A DNA stretch of 64,000 nt, from assembly GCF_016862515.1 (NCBI RefSeq), contig NZ_BONC01000028.1:1-64000 (forward strand). The letters are read 5' to 3'. Both the position numbers and the translations under genes were made by a program. Below the pieces are notes generated by a model. That model saw only the letters and a program-made list of their open reading frames with translations. It made no database searches and was not told the origin of the DNA. This DNA is from Asanoa iriomotensis. Its GTDB lineage: Bacteria > Actinomycetota > Actinomycetes > Mycobacteriales > Micromonosporaceae. Positions 47,270 through 54,862 of this stretch are shown here, one piece after another. Each line of letters opens with the position of its first letter. Within the stretch, counting starts at the first letter, position 1.

Positions 47270-47322
47270 TGGTCATCTCAGCTTCCGACTCCTACTTCGG
47301 TGACCGCGGACTCAGATGACCA
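47270..47322. promoter_or_regulatory. Inverted repeat spanning the SARP start codon
   Basis: TGGTCATCT (47270-47278) and AGATGACCA (47314-47322) are perfect arms 35 bases apart; the second contains the ATG at 47316. As RNA it would sequester the start; as DNA it could be an autoregulatory operator. A weaker GGTTTC/GAAACC pair lies at 47174-47192. Confidence 0.45.
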
Positions 47323-49133
47323 AACATGTCCACTTTGGATTACTCGGGCCCTTCGAACTTCGGGTGTCCGGGCGGCCGGTGCTGCTCCGGTCGGCGAGGA
47401 CGCGCATTCTCCTCGCGGGTTTGCTCCTGCGGCGGGGGCACGTCGTCTCCTCCGCGGAACTGATCGAGGCCATCTGGGGCCTCCGCCAACCGGACAACCC
47501 ACGCCGTGCGCTGCACGTGTGCGTTGTCCGGGCGCGAGCGAGCCTGGCCGGAGCGGGCGCCGAGGGGGCGATCGTCTCGGGCGCGGACGGCTACCGGATC
47601 GACGTGCCGCCGGACGCGCTCGACGTCGCGGTCTTCCGGCACTGGATGGAGCGGGCGGACGCGGCCGCGAACCACGACGACGTGGATGGTGAACGGAAGG
47701 CGCTGGCCGAGGCCCTGAGCCTCTGGCGCGGTGACGCGCTCGCGGACGTGCCGTCGGACTACCTGCACGGCGCGCACGGCGTCCGGCTCGCCGAGCAGCG
47801 CCTGCAGGCGGCCGAACGCCGAGTCGACCGGAGCCTCCAGGCGGGACTGCACGCGCAGGTCATCGGTGACCTGGCCGAGCTGACCGCGAGGCACCCGCTC
47901 CGCGAGCGGCTGTGGGCGCAGCTCATGACCGCGTTGCACCAGGCCGGCCGGCGGTCGGAGGCGATCAGCGCTTATCACGCCGCACACGGGCGCCTGGTCG
48001 AGGAGCTCGGCGTCGAACCCGGCGCGGAGCTGCGACGCCTGCATGCCACGATCCTGGCCGGGAACGGAGCCGGCGGTGCGCCGGCGCACATCGCGCCGCG
48101 GCAGCTCCCGTCCGAGGTCGCCGGGTTCGCCGGTCGGACCGCCGAGCTGGCACGGATGCACGAAATGCTCGACGCGCACGAGAACGGTGTCGTGAATGGA
48201 TCGACCGTGCTCGTCGTCAGCGGCATGGCGGGGATAGGCAAGACCGCCCTGGTTGCGTACTGGGCCCGCCGGGTCGCGGACCGGTTCCCCGACGGTCAGC
48301 TGTGGCTGGATCTACGCGGCTACGACAGACGGGCGCCGGCGACGGCGCAGCAGTCGATCGCGTCGATCCTCGGCGCGCTGGGCGTACCCGTGGCCGATCT
48401 GCCGCCCGGGCTGGACGAGCAGGTCGGGCTCTACCGATCGGTGCTGGACGGCCGGCGGGTGCTGCTCGTCCTCGACAACGCGTACCGCGTCGAACAGGTC
48501 CTGCACCTGCTCCCCGGCGAGGCGCGCGCGTTCGTGCTCGTCACGAGCCGCGGCGACCTGGCGCCGCTGGTCGCGATCGAGGGCGCGCACGCCATCCAGC
48601 TCGGCCCGCTCCCACCCGACGACGCGCGGCGGATGCTGGAGCCCAGGCTGGGTCGGGAGCGGACGCGCGCCGAACCCGACGCGGTCGACCGCATCATCGG
48701 CAACTGCTACGGGCTGCCGCTGGCGTTGGCGATCGTCGCGGCGCGGGCGGTGGCGCGTCCGCACTTCCCTCTGGCGGCGATCGACCGCCAGCTCACCAGC
48801 ATCGAAAACCCGCTCGACCGGTTCGCCGATCCCAGCGCCGCGGTGGACGTGCGGGCCGCGCTCTCGTGGTCCTATCGGTCCTTGAGCCCCGCCGCCGCGC
48901 GCCTGTTGCGCTTCCTGGCGCTGCATCCGACCGGCGACGTGTCGGTGGCGGCCGCGTCGAGCGTCGTCGGGTTGCCGCAGACCCGGTTGCTGCTCGACGA
49001 GCTCGCCGCCGCTCACCTGATCAGCGAGCCGACACCCGACCGGTTCGTCATGCACGACCTGCTCCGGGCGTATGCCGTCGAACGTGTCGCGACGCAGGAC
49101 CCGGCCGAGGAGCAGACGGCATCGCGGCCTTGA
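47316..49133 (+). CDS. AfsR/SARP-family regulator (BTAD + NB-ARC)
   Basis: 605 residues. OmpR-like winged helix (residues 5-95, FGLLGPFELRVSGRPVLLRSARTRILLAGLLL), bacterial transcriptional activation domain (about 100-250, DVAVFRHWMERADAA, ending YHAAHGRLVEELGVEPGAELRRLHATIL), then NB-ARC ATPase: Walker A GMAGIGKTAL, Walker B GRRVLLVLDNA, LVTSR, CYGLPLALAI, and winged helix ending MHDLLRAYAVERV. It stops there, without the TPR sensor of full AfsR. SARPs usually activate nearby secondary-metabolite genes; none is present, so the convergent DUF5317/microprotein operon is a candidate target or signal source (inference). Confidence 0.92.
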   Translation: MTKHVHFGLLGPFELRVSGRPVLLRSARTRILLAGLLLRRGHVVSSAELIEAIWGLRQPDNPRRALHVCVVRARASLAGAGAEGAIVSGADGYRIDVPPDALDVAVFRHWMERADAAANHDDVDGERKALAEALSLWRGDALADVPSDYLHGAHGVRLAEQRLQAAERRVDRSLQAGLHAQVIGDLAELTARHPLRERLWAQLMTALHQAGRRSEAISAYHAAHGRLVEELGVEPGAELRRLHATILAGNGAGGAPAHIAPRQLPSEVAGFAGRTAELARMHEMLDAHENGVVNGSTVLVVSGMAGIGKTALVAYWARRVADRFPDGQLWLDLRGYDRRAPATAQQSIASILGALGVPVADLPPGLDEQVGLYRSVLDGRRVLLVLDNAYRVEQVLHLLPGEARAFVLVTSRGDLAPLVAIEGAHAIQLGPLPPDDARRMLEPRLGRERTRAEPDAVDRIIGNCYGLPLALAIVAARAVARPHFPLAAIDRQLTSIENPLDRFADPSAAVDVRAALSWSYRSLSPAAARLLRFLALHPTGDVSVAAASSVVGLPQTRLLLDELAAAHLISEPTPDRFVMHDLLRAYAVERVATQDPAEEQTASRP

Positions 49134-49157
49134 TGACGGCCGGACGTAATCTTCGAC

Positions 49158-49204
49158 GGACCCGGGCACGGATCCGGATCTCTCCGGAACCGTGCCCGAG
49201 GTCC
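49158..49204. terminator. Long hairpin between SARP gene and microprotein operon
   Basis: A GGACC-GGGCACGG arm pairs with CCGTGCCC-AGGTCC (one bulge), with an inner CCGGA/TCCGG. It lies between convergent stops at 49133 and 49211, so it should terminate both transcripts. Confidence 0.65.
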
Positions 49205-49210
49205 GAGCGA

Positions 49211-49381
49211 TCAGCCGCCGTTGCTGACTGGTGCGCCGATCGTGTAGAGAAGCAGGGCCAGGGCCGTCACGGTCAGCAGCATCCGGGCGCCCGTGGTGAT
49301 CACGGTCGGTGCGTGGTGAGATCGTCCACCGTGGAGCAGGGCCGCCGGTGCGGCGACAGTGAGCCAGAGACGTGCTCGCAT
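49211..49381 (-). CDS. 56-residue single-span microprotein A (LLYTIGAP)
   Basis: MRARLWLTVAAPAALL opens a weakly hydrophobic N-terminus, then a His-containing linker, then a membrane-spanning helix from about residue 34 to 46 ending LLLYTIGAPVSNGG. GGAGGATGACC precedes ATG 49381 with ideal spacing. Its last third is clearly homologous to microprotein B 35 bases upstream (LLYTIGAP in both, with synonymous codon differences at the flanks), which argues that both are translated genes. Third gene of an operon with DUF5317. Function unknown; a membrane peptide, signal peptide or pheromone precursor are possibilities. Confidence 0.7.
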   Translation of the reverse strand: MRARLWLTVAAPAALLHGGRSHHAPTVITTGARMLLTVTALALLLYTIGAPVSNGG

Positions 49382-49415
49382 GGTCATCCTCCGTGGTTTG
49401 CGGGAGCGTCGAATG

Positions 49416-49520
49416 TCAGTGGGAGTCCCAGGGAGCGCCGATCGTGTAGAGCAGCGTGGCGAGGGCGGCGACGGCGCAGATCGCGTACGCGATGCGCCGC
49501 CACGGGTTGGCTCGGGTCAA
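49416..49520 (-). CDS. 34-residue single-span microprotein B (LLYTIGAP)
   Basis: Starts at TTG 49520 after AAAGGAGTAAACCA, overlapping the DUF5317 stop by 4 bases, so coupled to it. The sequence is a basic start (TRANPWRRI), one hydrophobic helix (residues 10-24) and the tail LLYTIGAPWDSH. The tail matches microprotein A over eight residues and both place Arg just before the helix. Too short for usual gene finders. Function unknown; see findings. Confidence 0.7.
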   Translation of the reverse strand: MTRANPWRRIAYAICAVAALATLLYTIGAPWDSH

Positions 49521-50161
49521 TGGTTTACTCCTTTCGGTTCCAGGCGACGGCGCATGGCGAGCACCACGAACGCGCACGCGCCGGCGCTGATCAGGACGTC
49601 GCCGGGACTGGCCACCTTGCGCAGGCCCGGGATCGGAATGGTGTCGCCGAGCCAGGCGAGTCGAGTGCCGGCGCCGGCCGGCTCGTTCTTGGCGGTCTGC
49701 GAGCCGGGTTGCCCGCCCGCCTTCGCGACGGCCGCCGGGTCGTACGGCATCCGGCCGTTCGCGGCGATCACGACACCGTTGAGGACCGCGCCGAGCACGA
49801 TCGCGAGCCCGGTCAAGCGGATCGCGGCGGGCCACCGCGGCAGGTTGACGGCCAACCAGCCGAGCACGGTCGCGAAGACCACCGCGAGCATCGGCACACC
49901 CACCACGTTTTCGACGAAATGCCGCACGCCTCCCAACGAGTACTGCGCGAACTGCACCGCGGCGGCCACCCAGACGAGCCAGAGCGCCCGGATCCGTAGG
50001 CTGCGGAGTCCCGCGAGCCGTCCGCCGAGCAGATAGCCGAGGCCGACCCCGAGCAGCGGAGGCGCGATGGTCAGCAGGAAGAAGCGGAATGACACGGGAC
50101 CGATCCATCTCCCTCCCCTGTCGAGTGTCCTGAGAGGGAAATTAACAACGCCGACCTTCAT
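49517..50161 (-). CDS. DUF5317 membrane protein
   Basis: 214 residues, about five membrane helices. GYLLGGRLAGLRSLRIRALWLVWVAAAVQFAQ, LNGVVIAANGRMPYDPAAV and TRLAWLGDTIPIPGLRKVASPGDVLISAGA are hallmarks of DUF5317, a family of unknown function. ATG 50161 has AAGG nearby, but family members begin close to VSFRFFLLTIAPPLLG, i.e. GTG 50095, which follows a GGGGAGGGAG stretch; the start is uncertain. First gene of an operon with two microproteins that overlap or closely follow it, and 27 bases downstream of the GH3 gene. Confidence 0.8.
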   Translation of the reverse strand: MKVGVVNFPLRTLDRGGRWIGPVSFRFFLLTIAPPLLGVGLGYLLGGRLAGLRSLRIRALWLVWVAAAVQFAQYSLGGVRHFVENVVGVPMLAVVFATVLGWLAVNLPRWPAAIRLTGLAIVLGAVLNGVVIAANGRMPYDPAAVAKAGGQPGSQTAKNEPAGAGTRLAWLGDTIPIPGLRKVASPGDVLISAGACAFVVLAMRRRLEPKGVNH

Positions 50162-50188
50162 CCAGCCTTCACCGCGACGCCGGCCCTG

Positions 50189-52540
50189 CTAGGCGCGGTA
50201 GCCCTGGGTGAAGCGCGATGAGTCGAGATCGAGCAGTTCTTCGTCGGGCACGAGGGGCGCGAGTCCAGGATCGTCGGGGAGCGCGATGCTCGTGCGCAGG
50301 CGGATGTCGCGGGACGACGCGCCCACCTCGATGACGAACTCGCCGCCCTCCCGGCGCCAGGCGCCGTATCGGCCGTTGCCGGTGTCGGCCGCGATGTCCC
50401 AGTACGCGAAGTCGCGACTTTCGAGGTCGAAGGTGACACGCGCGCTCTCGTCGTGTTCGAGGGTGATCTTCTCGAAGCCGCGCAGTTCGCGCACGGGTCG
50501 GCGGACTGCGGCGTCGGGGTCGCCGACATAAAGCTGTACGACCTCGCGGCCGGCGCGGGCGCCGGTGTTCGTGACGGTGCACGAGACGCGAACAACGCCG
50601 GCGTCGGCGTCGGTGACCTGGACGTCGAGGTTCGTATACCTGAACGTGGTGTACGACAGGCCGTGGCCGAAGGGGTAGCGCACCGCGCGGCGTAGTGCGT
50701 CGTACCAGCGGTATCCGATGAACACCCCTTCCCCGTAGAGCACCGTGCCGCGCTCCCCCGTCCACGTGACGTAACCGGGAGTGTCCTCCAGCGACAGTGG
50801 GAACGTCTCGGCCACCTTTCCGGAGGGATTCACCCGGCCCAGCAGGACGTCGACGACGGCGCCGGCGCCCGCCTGCCCGGGCAGCCACGCCTCGACGATC
50901 GCGTCCACGCGGTCGTGCCACGGGTCCATGGTCACGGCCGCCCCGTTGGACAGCACCACGACGAGCGCGGCGCCGGTCCGTTCGCGCAGATCCGCCAGCC
51001 GCTCGATGAGCGCGACCTGGTCGGCGGGCAGCGCGAGGGTCGTGCGGTCGTCGGCCTCCTGTTCGAACGCCAGGGGCAGGCCGGCGAACGCGACGATCAC
51101 GTCGGCATGCTCGGCGACGGCGACGGCCTCGTCGATGAGCCGGACCGCCTGTGCCGAGAGAGGACCGGCGGCGACGCGTTCGGCGGCCGCCGCCAGGCGA
51201 AGCGCTTCCGCGAGTGCGGCCGACCGGCGTGCCGGGCCGGCGCCGTCGTCGACGAAAGTGGCGTCGTGCGCGGCCAGATAGGCGCGGATGTCGTCCTGGT
51301 AGGCGTTCTTGGGCACGTGAACGTAGCCGGGCGCGTACCCGAGCCGGTTGCCGAAGATGTGGTTCAACAGGTCGAGTGCGTTGTCGACGCGGGTCGGGTC
51401 GACCCCTGACGAGCCGCCGCCCTGGATGCGGGCATGCTCGGCGAACGCGCCGATGACGGCGACCCGTTCAGTGCCGCCGGCATCGAGCGGCAGCACCGGG
51501 GCGCCGGCGCCTGGACGGGTCTCGTTGCACAGCAGCGTCACGCAACCGGCGGCCGCCTCGCGGGCGAGCTCGTGGTGCTCGTCGGCGCGCAGGAGTCCGA
51601 GCTGCTCGCGGGACAGCCGCTGGCCCGGTGTCACACCCAGGTCGACGACGGGCCCGTTCATCAGGTCCGGACCGGGGTACGCCCGCGCGACAAGCTGGAG
51701 CACCCGGCGGGCCGCCGCATCGACGACGCGTTCGTCGAGTTCACCCGACCGCACGGCGGATGCGATCTCCTTGTCCGTCACACCGCCGGTGCCGGGCATC
51801 TCGAGGTCGAGCCCGGCCGCCAGGGCGCGTACGCGGTGGTGGACCGCGTTCCAGTCGGAGACGACCAGCCCGTCGTATCCCCAGTCGTCCCGCAGCACCT
51901 CGGTGAGCAGCCACCGGTTCTCCGAGGCGTGCACCCCGTGCAAGCGGTTGTACGAGCACATGACCGTCCAGGGCCGGGCGGTGGTCACCACTTTCTCGAA
52001 CGCGGCGAGGTAGGTCTCGCGCAGCGTTCGCTCGTCGGCCTCGACCGAGATGCGGGTTCGCTCGATTTCCTGGTTGTTGGCGGCGAAGTGCTTGAGCGAG
52101 GCTCCGACACCGACGGACTGCACTCCCTCGACGTACGCGGCGCCAAGCTCGCCGGACAGCAGCGGGTCCTCGGCGAAATACTCGAAGTTCCGCCCGCACA
52201 GCGGTGACCGCTTCATGTTCACGCCCGGCCCGAGCACGACCTGGACGCCCTGCGCCCGGGCTTCCTCCCCGATCGCCGTCGCCACCCGCCGCACGAGGTC
52301 CCGGTCCCAGGAGGCGCCCATCGCGGAGGCCGTCGGAAAGGCGGTCGCGGGCACCCACACCATGTCGATGCCGGTCTCCTTGCGCAGCCCGTGCGGGCCG
52401 TCGCCCACCTCGATGGCGGGCACGTGAAGCCGGTCGATCGTCTCGGTGTACCAGTCGTCGTGGCCCGACAGCAGGGACGCCTTCTCCTCCAAGGTCAGGG
52501 CGGCCAGCACGGCGTCGACGTCGAACGGGGCAGTGGTCAT
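50189..52540 (-). CDS. GH3 beta-glucosidase-type glycosidase
   Basis: 783 residues, no signal peptide, so acts on imported sugars. N-terminal barrel (GDGPHGLR, LGPGVNMKRSPLCGRNFEYFAEDPLLSG, SLKHFAANNQE, nucleophile Asp in LVVSDWNAVH), alpha/beta sandwich with the acid/base Glu region, then a C-terminal Fn3-like domain (VQVTDADAGVVRVSCTVTNTGARAGREVVQLYVGD). Retaining exo-beta-glycosidase. It is the last enzyme of the ABC sugar operon; whether it prefers glucose or glucosamine residues is not decided by sequence. ATG 52540 follows CAAGGAAACCCG. Confidence 0.9.
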   Translation of the reverse strand: MTTAPFDVDAVLAALTLEEKASLLSGHDDWYTETIDRLHVPAIEVGDGPHGLRKETGIDMVWVPATAFPTASAMGASWDRDLVRRVATAIGEEARAQGVQVVLGPGVNMKRSPLCGRNFEYFAEDPLLSGELGAAYVEGVQSVGVGASLKHFAANNQEIERTRISVEADERTLRETYLAAFEKVVTTARPWTVMCSYNRLHGVHASENRWLLTEVLRDDWGYDGLVVSDWNAVHHRVRALAAGLDLEMPGTGGVTDKEIASAVRSGELDERVVDAAARRVLQLVARAYPGPDLMNGPVVDLGVTPGQRLSREQLGLLRADEHHELAREAAAGCVTLLCNETRPGAGAPVLPLDAGGTERVAVIGAFAEHARIQGGGSSGVDPTRVDNALDLLNHIFGNRLGYAPGYVHVPKNAYQDDIRAYLAAHDATFVDDGAGPARRSAALAEALRLAAAAERVAAGPLSAQAVRLIDEAVAVAEHADVIVAFAGLPLAFEQEADDRTTLALPADQVALIERLADLRERTGAALVVVLSNGAAVTMDPWHDRVDAIVEAWLPGQAGAGAVVDVLLGRVNPSGKVAETFPLSLEDTPGYVTWTGERGTVLYGEGVFIGYRWYDALRRAVRYPFGHGLSYTTFRYTNLDVQVTDADAGVVRVSCTVTNTGARAGREVVQLYVGDPDAAVRRPVRELRGFEKITLEHDESARVTFDLESRDFAYWDIAADTGNGRYGAWRREGGEFVIEVGASSRDIRLRTSIALPDDPGLAPLVPDEELLDLDSSRFTQGYRA

Positions 52541-52562
52541 CGGGTTTCCTTGGTAAGCGAGG

Positions 52563-53564
52563 TCAGGTCATGAGGAAGTCGTGCGGGTGTGCGTCGCGCA
52601 CGCGGGTGAGCAGGTCCGGGCCGATGACGATGCCGCCTTCGGCCAGCGCGTCGAGCACGACGCCGCTCAGCGGCGACGCGTCGGCGACGACGACCGCTGC
52701 GGCGGGCGCGACCCGACTCAGCTCGCCGGTGAGCGCGTCGCGCATCGCCGGGTGCTCCGACGTGGCGACCGACCCGTTCAGCAGCACCGGCAGCTCGCCG
52801 GAGGCGAGGTCGACGCCGACGCGCCGGGCGCACCACTGCGCGTACCGGACGAACGCCTCCGCCTGGGCGGTGACGATGTCCCGGGCGACCGTGTCGCCGG
52901 CGTCGGCAGCGGCGAGCACGACCCGCGAGGCCTGCCACAGGTCGGTCGCGGGCCGCGCGCCGAACCTCCGGGTGAAGTCATGGCGCAGGTGCCAGGCGTC
53001 CGGGACGCCGTACAGCGTGCAGAGCGCCTCGACCAGGGCCGTTTCGGGACCGATTCCCATCCAGGCCTGACACACCGCCTTGAGGGCGGCGTTGCCGAGC
53101 CCGCTGCCACCGAGGTGGTCGAACACGAAGAAGCCGGAGCATTCCTCGCGCCCGTCCTTCGCCCGGGCGGCGACGGCGGGACCGGTGCCGACGGCGATCG
53201 ACACGGCGACGCCCGATCCGTCGACCAGGCGCAGCGACGCGAACGCGTCGTTCTTGACGCTCCAGCGGCCCATGTCGCCCAGCCGTGCGCGGACCTGCTC
53301 GTCCCAGAACTCCGCGTCCTCGGGATAGTCGACGCCGGCGATCCGGAAGGCCGCCGAGACGACCTCGCCGGATGCGATTCCGGCGCTGGTCAGGGCGACC
53401 TCGACGGCGCCGAACACGGCCTCGATCGCGTCGGGAACGCTCGGGGCCCCGTAGATGTCGCCGTTCCCGCCCCGGCCGCGGCCCAGGACGGTGCCCTCGG
53501 CGTCGGTGACGAGGGCGACCGTCTTGGAGTTTCCGGCGTCCACCGCCAGGTAGGCGCGCTTCAC
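52563..53564 (-). CDS. BadF/BcrA-type sugar kinase (GlcNAc or glucosamine kinase)
   Basis: 333 residues, ASKHA (actin-like ATPase) fold: YLAVDAGNSKTVALVTDAEG is the phosphate-1 loop, VSIAVGTGPAVAARAKDG and FDHLGGSGLGNAALKAV follow GlcNAc-kinase-like members, and VLLNGSVAT the adenosine motif. With the NagB-like deaminase two genes upstream, phosphorylation of glucosamine or GlcNAc at O6 is the likely role. GTG 53564 overlaps the GH4 stop (GTGA), giving coupling. Confidence 0.82.
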   Translation of the reverse strand: MKRAYLAVDAGNSKTVALVTDAEGTVLGRGRGGNGDIYGAPSVPDAIEAVFGAVEVALTSAGIASGEVVSAAFRIAGVDYPEDAEFWDEQVRARLGDMGRWSVKNDAFASLRLVDGSGVAVSIAVGTGPAVAARAKDGREECSGFFVFDHLGGSGLGNAALKAVCQAWMGIGPETALVEALCTLYGVPDAWHLRHDFTRRFGARPATDLWQASRVVLAAADAGDTVARDIVTAQAEAFVRYAQWCARRVGVDLASGELPVLLNGSVATSEHPAMRDALTGELSRVAPAAAVVVADASPLSGVVLDALAEGGIVIGPDLLTRVRDAHPHDFLMT

Positions 53565-54862
53565 TTGAGCAGACGCTCGGGAAGGTAGGCGCGGTGCGCG
53601 TACGCCATCTCGTCGTACAGCTCCTCGGCGACGGCGAGCGTGGGCACCATCGGGTTGGCGGCCAGCGCGCGGATCCCGTCGGCCCGGGTGCCCTTCCACG
53701 CGGCCTCGGCGGCGAGGTACTGGAACTCGGCGAGCTGCTGTACGAGACCGCGGACCGCGTGCGGGAGGGGCTTCTGCGGCAGCGGGCGGACGCCCCGCCC
53801 GTCGACGGTGCACCACATCTCGACGACGACGTCCTCGTCGAACCCGGGCAGCGCGCCGCCGACGTTCGGCAGGTTGACCGGCAGGCGGGCGCTCTTGTCG
53901 TTGTAGTAGGCGCTCATCACGTCGATCGCCAGCTCGAGCTCGTGGATGCCGCCCCGGGAGCGGGCCGGATCCAGCTCGGGGACGTCGACGCGCATCTGCT
54001 CCTCGTAGTGCTGCCAGTACCCGGGCAGCGCGGCGAGCAGGTCCTCGGCGCGGGTGGTGCGGGCACCCTGGAGCTCCCGGAGCACCTCCTCGCGGAAGTA
54101 GTAGTACTGGAAGTAGTCGCTGGGCACCGACCGCATGGTTGTCGCCAGACGCAGCATCCGCTTGGCGTGGACGGACAGCGACGGGTCGTCCTTGCGTGCC
54201 TCCCACGCGTCGTCGAGCAACGGCATCAGATCCTGGCCCTCGTACGTGTGCTCGTAGGACCAGCAGTTGTGGTTGACGCCGGCCATGACCACGTCGGCCT
54301 TCTCGGGGTCGAGGCCGGCCGCCGTCAGCACGGTCTTCGGGAACACGATCGGGCCCTCGCACATCGACCAGATCGTGCGGTCGGTGAACCGGGTGACCGC
54401 CTGGGAGACGATGTTCACCGGATTCGTGTAGTTGAAGATCACCGCGTTCGGCGCGACCGCGTCCAGGTCGCGGATGATGTCCTCGTAGATGTGGATCGAG
54501 CGCAGGGACATGAAGAACCCGCCCGGTCCCTGCGTCTCCTGGCCGATGACACCGTGCTTGAGCGGGATGCGCTCGTCGAGTGCGCGCGCGGCGAAGTCGC
54601 CCGGACGGAAGCTGGCGAGGACCGCGTCGGCGTCGGTCAGCGCGGCGCGCCGGTCGGTGGTCGACGTGATGGTGATGTCGAGGCCCTGCGCCCGTGCGAT
54701 TTTCCGGGCGATCGTCTCCACGGCGTGCAGCCGGTCCGGGTTCACGTCCTGGATGACGATCTCGGAGCCGTCGAACTCCTTGCCGTGCGACAGGATGGAC
54801 GCCATGGTCCCCGCGCCGCGGGACGACCCGCCGCCGATGTAGACGAGCTTGATGGCTGCCAT
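53561..54862 (-). CDS. GH4-family glycosidase
   Basis: 433 residues. NAD+/Mn2+-dependent glycosidase acting by oxidation-elimination: Rossmann start IKLVYIGGGSSRGAGTMASIL, GQETQGPGGFFMSLR, NYTNPVNIVSQAVTRF and metal ligands C168 (MCEGP) and H198 (GVNHNCW). The Cys motif is CEGP, not the usual CNxP of 6-phospho-glucosidases or CHxx of alpha-galactosidases/glucuronidases, so the substrate may differ. It would cleave an imported, possibly phosphorylated, glycoside ahead of the kinase and deaminase. AAGGAAC precedes ATG 54862. Confidence 0.88.
   Translation of the reverse strand: MAAIKLVYIGGGSSRGAGTMASILSHGKEFDGSEIVIQDVNPDRLHAVETIARKIARAQGLDITITSTTDRRAALTDADAVLASFRPGDFAARALDERIPLKHGVIGQETQGPGGFFMSLRSIHIYEDIIRDLDAVAPNAVIFNYTNPVNIVSQAVTRFTDRTIWSMCEGPIVFPKTVLTAAGLDPEKADVVMAGVNHNCWSYEHTYEGQDLMPLLDDAWEARKDDPSLSVHAKRMLRLATTMRSVPSDYFQYYYFREEVLRELQGARTTRAEDLLAALPGYWQHYEEQMRVDVPELDPARSRGGIHELELAIDVMSAYYNDKSARLPVNLPNVGGALPGFDEDVVVEMWCTVDGRGVRPLPQKPLPHAVRGLVQQLAEFQYLAAEAAWKGTRADGIRALAANPMVPTLAVAEELYDEMAYAHRAYLPERLLK

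Follow-up and report, generated by a model that had tools for sequence, protein, structure and literature searches.

Tail-Variable Single-Helix Microproteins Adjoining DUF5317 in Micromonosporaceae: an Undescribed Gene Family

Introduction

Type I toxin peptides such as Fst and Ldr are single helices of about 30 aa that sometimes occur in tandem, and several non-identical Phr paralogs can be encoded by one genome. Phr signals are penta- or hexapeptides derived from precursors of about 40 aa, and PhrF binds the TPR domain of RapF (PMC3601957). More generally, RRNPP propeptides are described as 10–100 aa in length, with a basic N-terminus, a hydrophobic region, and a mature signal usually formed by the last 4–10 residues; their receptors are recognized as adjacent (-60 to 400 bp) TPR proteins of 250–500 aa (PMC10075063). 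The same account contrasts the small-molecule signals of Actinomycetota with the peptides of Bacillota (PMC10075063). Among membrane-active peptides, those of the leaderless bacteriocin aureocin A70 are given as 30–31 aa with charges of +4 to +5 and GRAVY values of 0.53–0.71 (PMC6131525).

Here we analyzed a locus of Asanoa iriomotensis in which two microproteins lie beside a membrane protein of the DUF5317 family. The locus is part of a 64,000-nt stretch of contig NZ_BONC01000028.1 (the window), and a sequence-only reading had proposed that it encodes a peptide-plus-membrane-protein module, possibly read out by an adjacent SARP regulator. We know of no function assigned to PF17248 (DUF5317). 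Across 5.39 million open-licence papers, neither DUF5317, PF17248 nor any of five peptide motifs was found to be named.

Results

The Asanoa iriomotensis Locus

The DUF5317 gene of the window lies on the reverse strand (49517–50161), and its product matched the PF17248 profile at 68.1 bits against a curated cut-off of 25. Translation from ATG 50161 gives 214 aa; GTG 50095 is the likely start, as relatives align from MSFRFF onward. The gene is followed on the same strand by a 34-aa microprotein with the tail WDSH (micro1; 49416–49520; profile match 65 bits), which starts with TTG behind an AAAGGAG site and shares the bases TTGA with the DUF5317 stop, just as the sequence-only reading had described this 34-codon frame and its 4-base overlap. 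A second microprotein with the tail VSNGG (micro2; 49211–49381, reverse strand; 45 bits) has an unusually long N-terminus. The ORF list began it at ATG 49387, giving 58 aa, but GGAGG would abut that ATG; from ATG 49381 the spacing to GGAGG is 6 and the product has 56 aa, which agrees with the 56 codons read earlier. When aligned, micro1 and micro2 are 53% identical, and both end in LLYTIGAP plus the short tail, a feature that had also been read correctly from the letters. Because the same genome carries a second DUF5317 followed by a third microprotein relative, MTKPVKNAVLTLAALATLLLTVGAPLIINSN, and because the family profile found no copy at ≥18 bits in 80 control loci (1.3 Mb, one region of which, L174, overlaps a microprotein-less DUF5317 place), the likeness of the two frames goes beyond chance.

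The earlier statement that neither frame belongs to a recognized family also stood, with no match over cut-off in Pfam, NCBIfam or PADLOC. For the two window microproteins, the sole Pfam match was a sub-threshold hit of micro1 to DUF883_C (16.5 vs. 27 bits); NCBIfam gave no match for five microproteins and PADLOC none for three. An Rfam scan of 49000–50700 returned a single match far under threshold. Directly upstream of DUF5317 and on the same strand, a GH3 glycosidase recognized by Pfam is found together with further frames that by eye resemble sugar catabolism genes (GH4-like and sugar-kinase-like; 50189–54862, reverse strand). The GH3 gene cluster was present in none of the other neighborhoods of the 40-locus array set described below.

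Downstream, the SARP-type BTAD/NB-ARC regulator (47316–49133, forward strand; BTAD 137.7 bits, NB-ARC 44.8 bits) has 605 aa and no TPR match below E 0.07. It does face the operon, as had been noted, in that the genes are convergent and its 3′ end points toward that of micro2; we do not judge it to be part of the module. The inverted repeat said to contain its start codon can be seen as a palindrome at 47297–47316, but this comprises just 13 nt at 77%. Between the convergent ends of micro2 and the SARP gene lies a strong hairpin (49157–49205, no strand assigned; -45.6 kcal/mol and z -5.2 for 49140–49215), which is probably a terminator or a transcription barrier. Given this hairpin, the convergent orientation and the lack of SARP conservation beside DUF5317 in 40 array neighborhoods, the SARP was rejected as module partner, and the suggestion that it reads out the peptides was not upheld.

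Distribution and Coupling to DUF5317

Both window frames are members of a previously undescribed microprotein family, predicted to be single-helix, that adjoins DUF5317 in Micromonosporaceae and, sporadically, in other actinobacteria. A profile built from ten peptides matched 35 of 354 Micromonosporaceae genomes at E ≤ 0.01, of which 30 were counted as genuine; the five set aside (G057, G166, G267, G292, and G362) had matches of only about 20 bits inside frames of 195–4616 aa. DUF5317 exceeded the curated PF17248 cut-off at 39 places in 30 of the 354 genomes. Both elements occurred in 29, so that the similar short frames expected beside DUF5317 in other genomes are indeed present. One genome (G241) has the microprotein only, and another (G340) has DUF5317 without a profile-detected microprotein; there, the frame MSRVRMVWTAVVSMATAAGAVYVAVAPYTQGL, which begins 38 nt behind DUF5317, is probably a diverged copy. 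A microprotein lay on the same strand at 35 of the 39 DUF5317 places, the two profile matches being separated by -25 to 145 bp. The exceptions were G146:C13, G146:C66, the frame-broken G367:C478 and, by profile, G340. This co-occurrence and tight same-strand adjacency bear out the putative peptide-plus-membrane-protein module of the sequence-only reading. At G367:C478, DUF5317 is split over two frames and a microprotein is not recognizable; the two may decay as a pair.

A search by DUF5317 alignment alone returned 19 loci, 18 of them with a microprotein; 15 were already in the sample, and three of the four new ones had a microprotein. The organisms were Paractinoplanes/Actinoplanes/Amorphoplanes, Dactylosporangium, Micromonospora, Catellatospora, a Streptosporangiales MAG, Actinomadura, Streptomyces sp. 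CBMA152, and a Bacillota MAG, whose DUF5317 (30% identity) had no microprotein beside it. In Nonomuraea gerenzanensis, a microprotein with the WDSH tail of the window adjoins DUF5317. Outside Micromonosporaceae the microprotein was rare in our samples, with 2 of 394 genomes of the class, including that of A. iriomotensis, and 1 of 386 genomes of the phylum, which was again that of A. iriomotensis. With regard to a mobile-element origin, a single pattern-based search for DUF5317 in viral contigs gave no hit, and the plasmid collection yielded one record, a chromosome-sized Nonomuraea replicon of 11.85 Mb. A plasmid search with a single peptide returned nothing and missed even this record, so it was insensitive.

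Anatomy of the Microproteins and Their Arrays

The family plan is as follows: a basic N-terminus, a hydrophobic core, the motif YT[IV]GAP, and a tail of usually 4–6 residues. Arrays, which had not been part of the earlier reading, contain 1–15 copies in a row (15 in L073) and are found behind DUF5317 in some loci and ahead of it in others. The copies are mostly 2–40 nt apart, often have their own ribosome-binding sites, and are co-directional with DUF5317. For the analyses below we used 103 copies, a set that omits one L077 copy for which no start was found and later copies in L138, L139, and L141; copies below 19 bits were dropped (below 20 for five added loci), as was any copy from the 40 array loci in which the match was followed by more than 40 residues. 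Lengths were 27–44 aa in 102 of the 103 copies, the exception of 23 aa being the script's call of window micro2, for which the better start gives 56 aa. Tails had five residues in 88 copies, four in 8, six in 5, and eight or nine in 2. Within YT[IV]GAP, the Y was found in 99 copies, the T in 96 and the G in 100; since copies were anchored on [GA]AP, the A and P are invariant by construction.

Charged residues were distributed asymmetrically, with 186 K/R and 10 D/E before the core and 6 K/R and 71 D/E in the tails, from which an N-in/C-out topology is predicted. The mean net charge was +1.4, with 53 of 103 copies at +1 and 4 at +4 or more, and the mean GRAVY was 0.82. One reading of the terminal GG of many tails, that it only provides the ribosome-binding site for the following gene, was rejected since the GG is present even where a copy is the last or the only one (28 of 40), its codons then being mostly GGCGGC (17 of 28). 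Among internal copies ending in GG, the codons were GGAGGC in 17 of 28, and in array loci L046–L085 this sequence may double as the ribosome-binding site of the next copy. Four loci of two genomes of one genus (L066, L067, L071, and L072; G309 and G321) show a conserved open stretch ahead of the start codon, T[TA]ESVxVxQ..., which may extend the N-terminus or represent a conserved leader. In two genomes of one genus (L062 and L069), two arrays stand about 3 kb apart, and the stretch between them encodes an ABC-type ATPase, a protein of 120 aa and a putative membrane protein.

Tail Variation and Selection

In 30 within-genome pairs with ≥85% body identity, the bodies showed 51 nonsynonymous and 142 synonymous codon differences over 800 codons, and the tails 62 and 7, respectively, over 150 codons. 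Using each copy once and choosing closest pairs at ≥80% body identity, we obtained a pN/pS of 0.19 for the body and 1.17 for the tail in 22 within-genome pairs, vs. 0.22 and 0.44 in 23 between-genome pairs, whose synonymous divergence was slightly larger. None of the former and six of the latter had a common tail (Fisher 0.022). At ≥70%, the values were 0.24, 1.34 and no common tail within genomes (26 pairs) and 0.36, 0.65 and six common tails between genomes (35 pairs). Because choosing on body identity favors a conserved body and lowers the body ratio, pairs were alternatively chosen by synonymous closeness alone, with body pS up to 0.2, 0.3, and 0.4. Within genomes, body pN/pS was then 0.27, 0.47, and 0.50, tail pN/pS was 1.08, 1.00, and 1.00, and common tails numbered 0/15, 0/25, and 0/35. 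Between genomes, tail pN/pS was 0.29, 0.42, and 0.68, and common tails were found in 7/19, 8/31, and 8/43 pairs (Fisher 0.011, 0.006, and 0.007); the high body ratios of these pairs (0.91, 0.79, and 0.74) indicate that this choice admits unrelated pairs. Pairs whose tails differed in length were excluded from the ≥85% set and from the closest-pair sets; in the pS sets they were counted as pairs and kept out of the rates. The constraint on within-genome bodies by either choice of pairs supports the earlier view of an old duplication kept by selection; that the tails of paralogs are unlike had escaped that reading.

When all pairs with ≥80% body identity were considered, which are not independent, none of the 42 within-genome pairs had a common tail, compared with 38 of the 137 between-genome pairs. 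Inside one genome, identical tails occurred in only 1 of 239 pairs (HEHGG, at two different loci in G250), where permutation gave a mean of 9.7 (P 0.0007). Permuting within four genera, which hold 86 of the 103 copies, gave a mean of 10.0, and 0 of 20,000 permutations were as low. These permutations ignore orthology, and part of the excess comes from old paralogs inherited together, so the non-redundancy is partly due to such parallel inheritance. One genome (G120) has 17 copies with 17 different tails. HEHGG was found in 14 copies across 13 genomes. The words HLSIG, HISTG, MTEGS, HEHGG, and WDSH recur on distant bodies with different synonymous codons, e.g., CAC CTA AGT ATT GGC vs. CAC CTC AGC ATC GGC for HLSIG. 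The tail alphabet is restricted, with mostly H/Y/M/F at P+1 and mostly G at P+4 and P+5. Paralog tails change at about the neutral rate (pN/pS 1.0–1.2), not clearly above 1, and relaxed constraint could produce such values; it is disfavored by the tails common to different genomes and by the restricted alphabet. Neither plainly unconstrained nor a set motif, the tail seems to act like a label that is distinct within a cell and drawn from a common vocabulary.

The DUF5317 Protein

The AF2 model of DUF5317 (mean pLDDT 88, pTM 0.81) shows five long helices, and residues 114–163 make up a conserved domain of loops and strands. Mean K+R vs. D+E was 3.4/0.1 in the loop 23–37, 1.1/0 in 86–92, and 2.9/1.0 at the C-terminus, compared with 1.4/1.1 in 54–68 and 5.0/4.1 in the domain 114–163. 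By the positive-inside rule, these loop charges imply that domain 114–163 should share a face with the microprotein tails. A fold comparison with solved structures gave nothing better than E 3, a comparison by sequence gave none at E ≤ 1, and PADLOC had no match for four proteins.

In a midpoint-rooted tree of 51 DUF5317s, one group comprised 41 proteins with a microprotein (G340 counted) and two without; its support (92/93) lies just below the star threshold of the program. All eight DUF5317s outside this group had no microprotein. In total, ten sampled DUF5317 loci had no recognizable microprotein, including loci of other actinobacterial families and of the Bacillota MAG. In Amorphoplanes nipponensis (L099:3001–3795), the DUF5317 frame continues through the first microprotein, which is in another frame, into the second, which is in frame, so that on the DNA DUF5317 and microprotein form a single natural frame. 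A model of this read-through, meant to reveal docking, was uninformative, with a pLDDT of about 40 in the microprotein part. At G146:C13 (L135), a 913-aa open frame has DUF5317 near its C-terminus; it was discarded as a fusion clue since it held no Pfam domain besides DUF5317.

Neighboring Genes

Clustering of the genes in 40 array neighborhoods placed DUF5317 in 31 of 40 by gene caller and in 34 by profile (one partial), DUF5317 being absent from the fetched stretch in 6 arrays. Every other cluster was limited to ≤10 loci, the largest being one that holds ABC-ATPase-like proteins (10 loci) and one of HTH or SARP plus NB-ARC and/or TPR regulators (9 loci), and no conserved receptor or protease was found beside the unit in the 40 neighborhoods. 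In a leave-one-locus-out search, the HTH/SARP NB-ARC-TPR class was present within ~6 kb at 11 of 40 array loci vs. 5 of 80 controls (E < 1e-8, Fisher 0.003), a class that was picked post hoc and searched with query proteins drawn from array loci. The first 40 controls gave 1/40, and 40 more were then added. At other cut-offs, the controls numbered 7/80 (E < 1e-5, Fisher 0.013) and 3/80 (1e-25, 0.0003). The regulators lay 0.08–5.6 kb from the arrays in mixed orientation, 29 of the 40 loci had none, and seven NB-ARC/TPR regulators that were scanned had 718–1006 aa. Being weak and post hoc, this enrichment is a lead and not a finding, and the arrays may merely occupy accessory regions. Four of the six arrays without DUF5317 (L050, L067, L079, and L085) have a regulator of this class within 1–5.6 kb, which is likewise a post hoc lead toward a receptor.

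Discussion

Comparative sequence analysis establishes a microprotein family, its coupling to DUF5317, a constrained body, and tails that are unlike between paralogs yet recur across species. The most likely reading, though at less than an even chance, is that each microprotein is a propeptide or a displayed peptide with its tail as the active word, and that DUF5317 is the common partner in export, processing, or scaffolding. The two-part module would consist of DUF5317, with its roughly five long helices, and one to fifteen small peptides, each inserted N-in/C-out through one hydrophobic helix. Past the fixed YT[IV]GAP boundary, a tail of usually 4–6 residues would be shown on the outer face. 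It would be the information-bearing part, a non-redundant word for a receptor separate from DUF5317, and DUF5317 would serve the body/GAP part. We infer this topology, from the charge distribution, and an action of DUF5317 on the conserved body/GAP part; by analogy with RRNPP propeptides, the tails, displayed or cut off, may be words for another receptor. DUF5317 itself should be no word-specific reader, because one DUF5317 accompanies up to 15 tails. Against the word model, DUF5317 is absent near 6 of 40 arrays, the neighborhoods are without a conserved receptor or protease, and some words occur in many species (HEHGG in 13 genomes), unlike fast-diverging pherotypes. It is conceivable but doubtful that these arrays amount to an actinobacterial ribosomal peptide vocabulary, in which the words are distinct per cell and common across species, DUF5317 matures or displays them, and receptors read them.

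The microproteins could instead serve as small, mutually replaceable subunits in a membrane complex with DUF5317, such as a transporter or sensor, in which the outer tail tunes binding and nothing is released. Such a role, which we consider somewhat unlikely, would fit the tight same-strand adjacency, the clustering of microprotein-associated DUF5317s apart from other sampled members of the family, and the predicted location of the tail and the conserved DUF5317 domain on the same face; it does not need fifteen copies per DUF5317 or non-repeating tails, and leaves the six arrays without a nearby DUF5317 unaccounted for. Variation that is concentrated in the tail, outside the helix, also speaks against a multi-peptide membrane-active antimicrobial of the leaderless-bacteriocin kind with DUF5317 as immunity or export protein. 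Size, tandem multi-peptide layout, membrane immunity protein, and hydropathy do resemble the description of aureocin A70, but the mean charge is +1.4 here vs. +4 to +5 there (PMC6131525), and the cluster containing ABC ATPases (g1) is limited to 10 of 40 loci; this explanation is unlikely.

If the tail were largely unconstrained after duplication, its variety would be neutral drift, as a paralog tail pN/pS of about 1 allows (1.17, or 1.00–1.08 by synonymous closeness). We give this little credence, given that tails are more constrained between genomes (0.44, or 0.29–0.68), that the alphabet is restricted and the same word recurs with different codons, and that closely related paralogs never had a common tail (0/42) while between-genome pairs did (38/137). 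Equally improbable is that the neighboring SARP, or NB-ARC/TPR regulators in the vicinity, act as readers of the peptides. RRNPP receptors are described as binding peptides through TPRs (PMC3601957, PMC10075063), the regulator class is enriched (11/40 vs. 5/80), and four of its 11 occurrences fall among the six DUF5317-less arrays; yet 29 of 40 loci have no such gene, the distances of 0.08–5.6 kb and orientations vary, the class was defined post hoc, and in the window a hairpin parts the convergent genes. Patchy spread (30 of 354 Micromonosporaceae genomes) and varied tails might also suggest membrane-level phage exclusion, with tails diversified against phage injection proteins. This is very improbable, as PADLOC had no match for the four proteins and the words cross genera and are more conserved between genomes, which is not arms-race-like.

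We rate the gene family and the behavior of its tails as categorically new; the underlying mechanism may yet be recognized as a variant of something known. If the tails are words, then actinomycetes, the main antibiotic producers, would have their own genetically encoded peptide code, and if the vocabulary reading is true, linear-peptide signaling or recognition would exist in a phylum usually credited with small-molecule signals. In either case, DUF5317 gains a genetic partner, and tail function is directly testable.

Among known systems, type I toxins share the ~30-aa single-helix size and tandem copies with the microproteins, which differ in being 2–40 nt apart and co-directional with DUF5317, leaving little room for separate antisense antitoxins. 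Leaderless bacteriocins, as aureocin A70 and garvicin KS are described, also combine tandem hydrophobic peptides of ~30 aa with a membrane protein (PMC6131525). Compared by description, the microproteins differ in being weakly rather than strongly cationic (mean +1.4; 4 of 103 at ≥+4) and in having, behind a conserved GAP boundary, a variable tail that is predicted to be external. With respect to PF17248, the window protein is a member, and in our sample the microprotein is limited to one actinobacterial group of this family. The RRNPP systems of Bacillota (Phr and SHP) resemble the microproteins in predicted layout, with a short precursor, a basic N-terminus, a hydrophobic stretch, and variable C-terminal residues; the propeptide layout outlined in PMC10075063 is found here, the tail corresponding to the mature peptide by analogy. 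Only DUF5317 stands regularly beside the arrays, and since an adjacent TPR receptor as outlined in that account is missing, the microproteins fall outside RRNPP. In contrast to Phr and SHP, their constant partner is a membrane protein, one per whole array, and their host is an actinobacterium.
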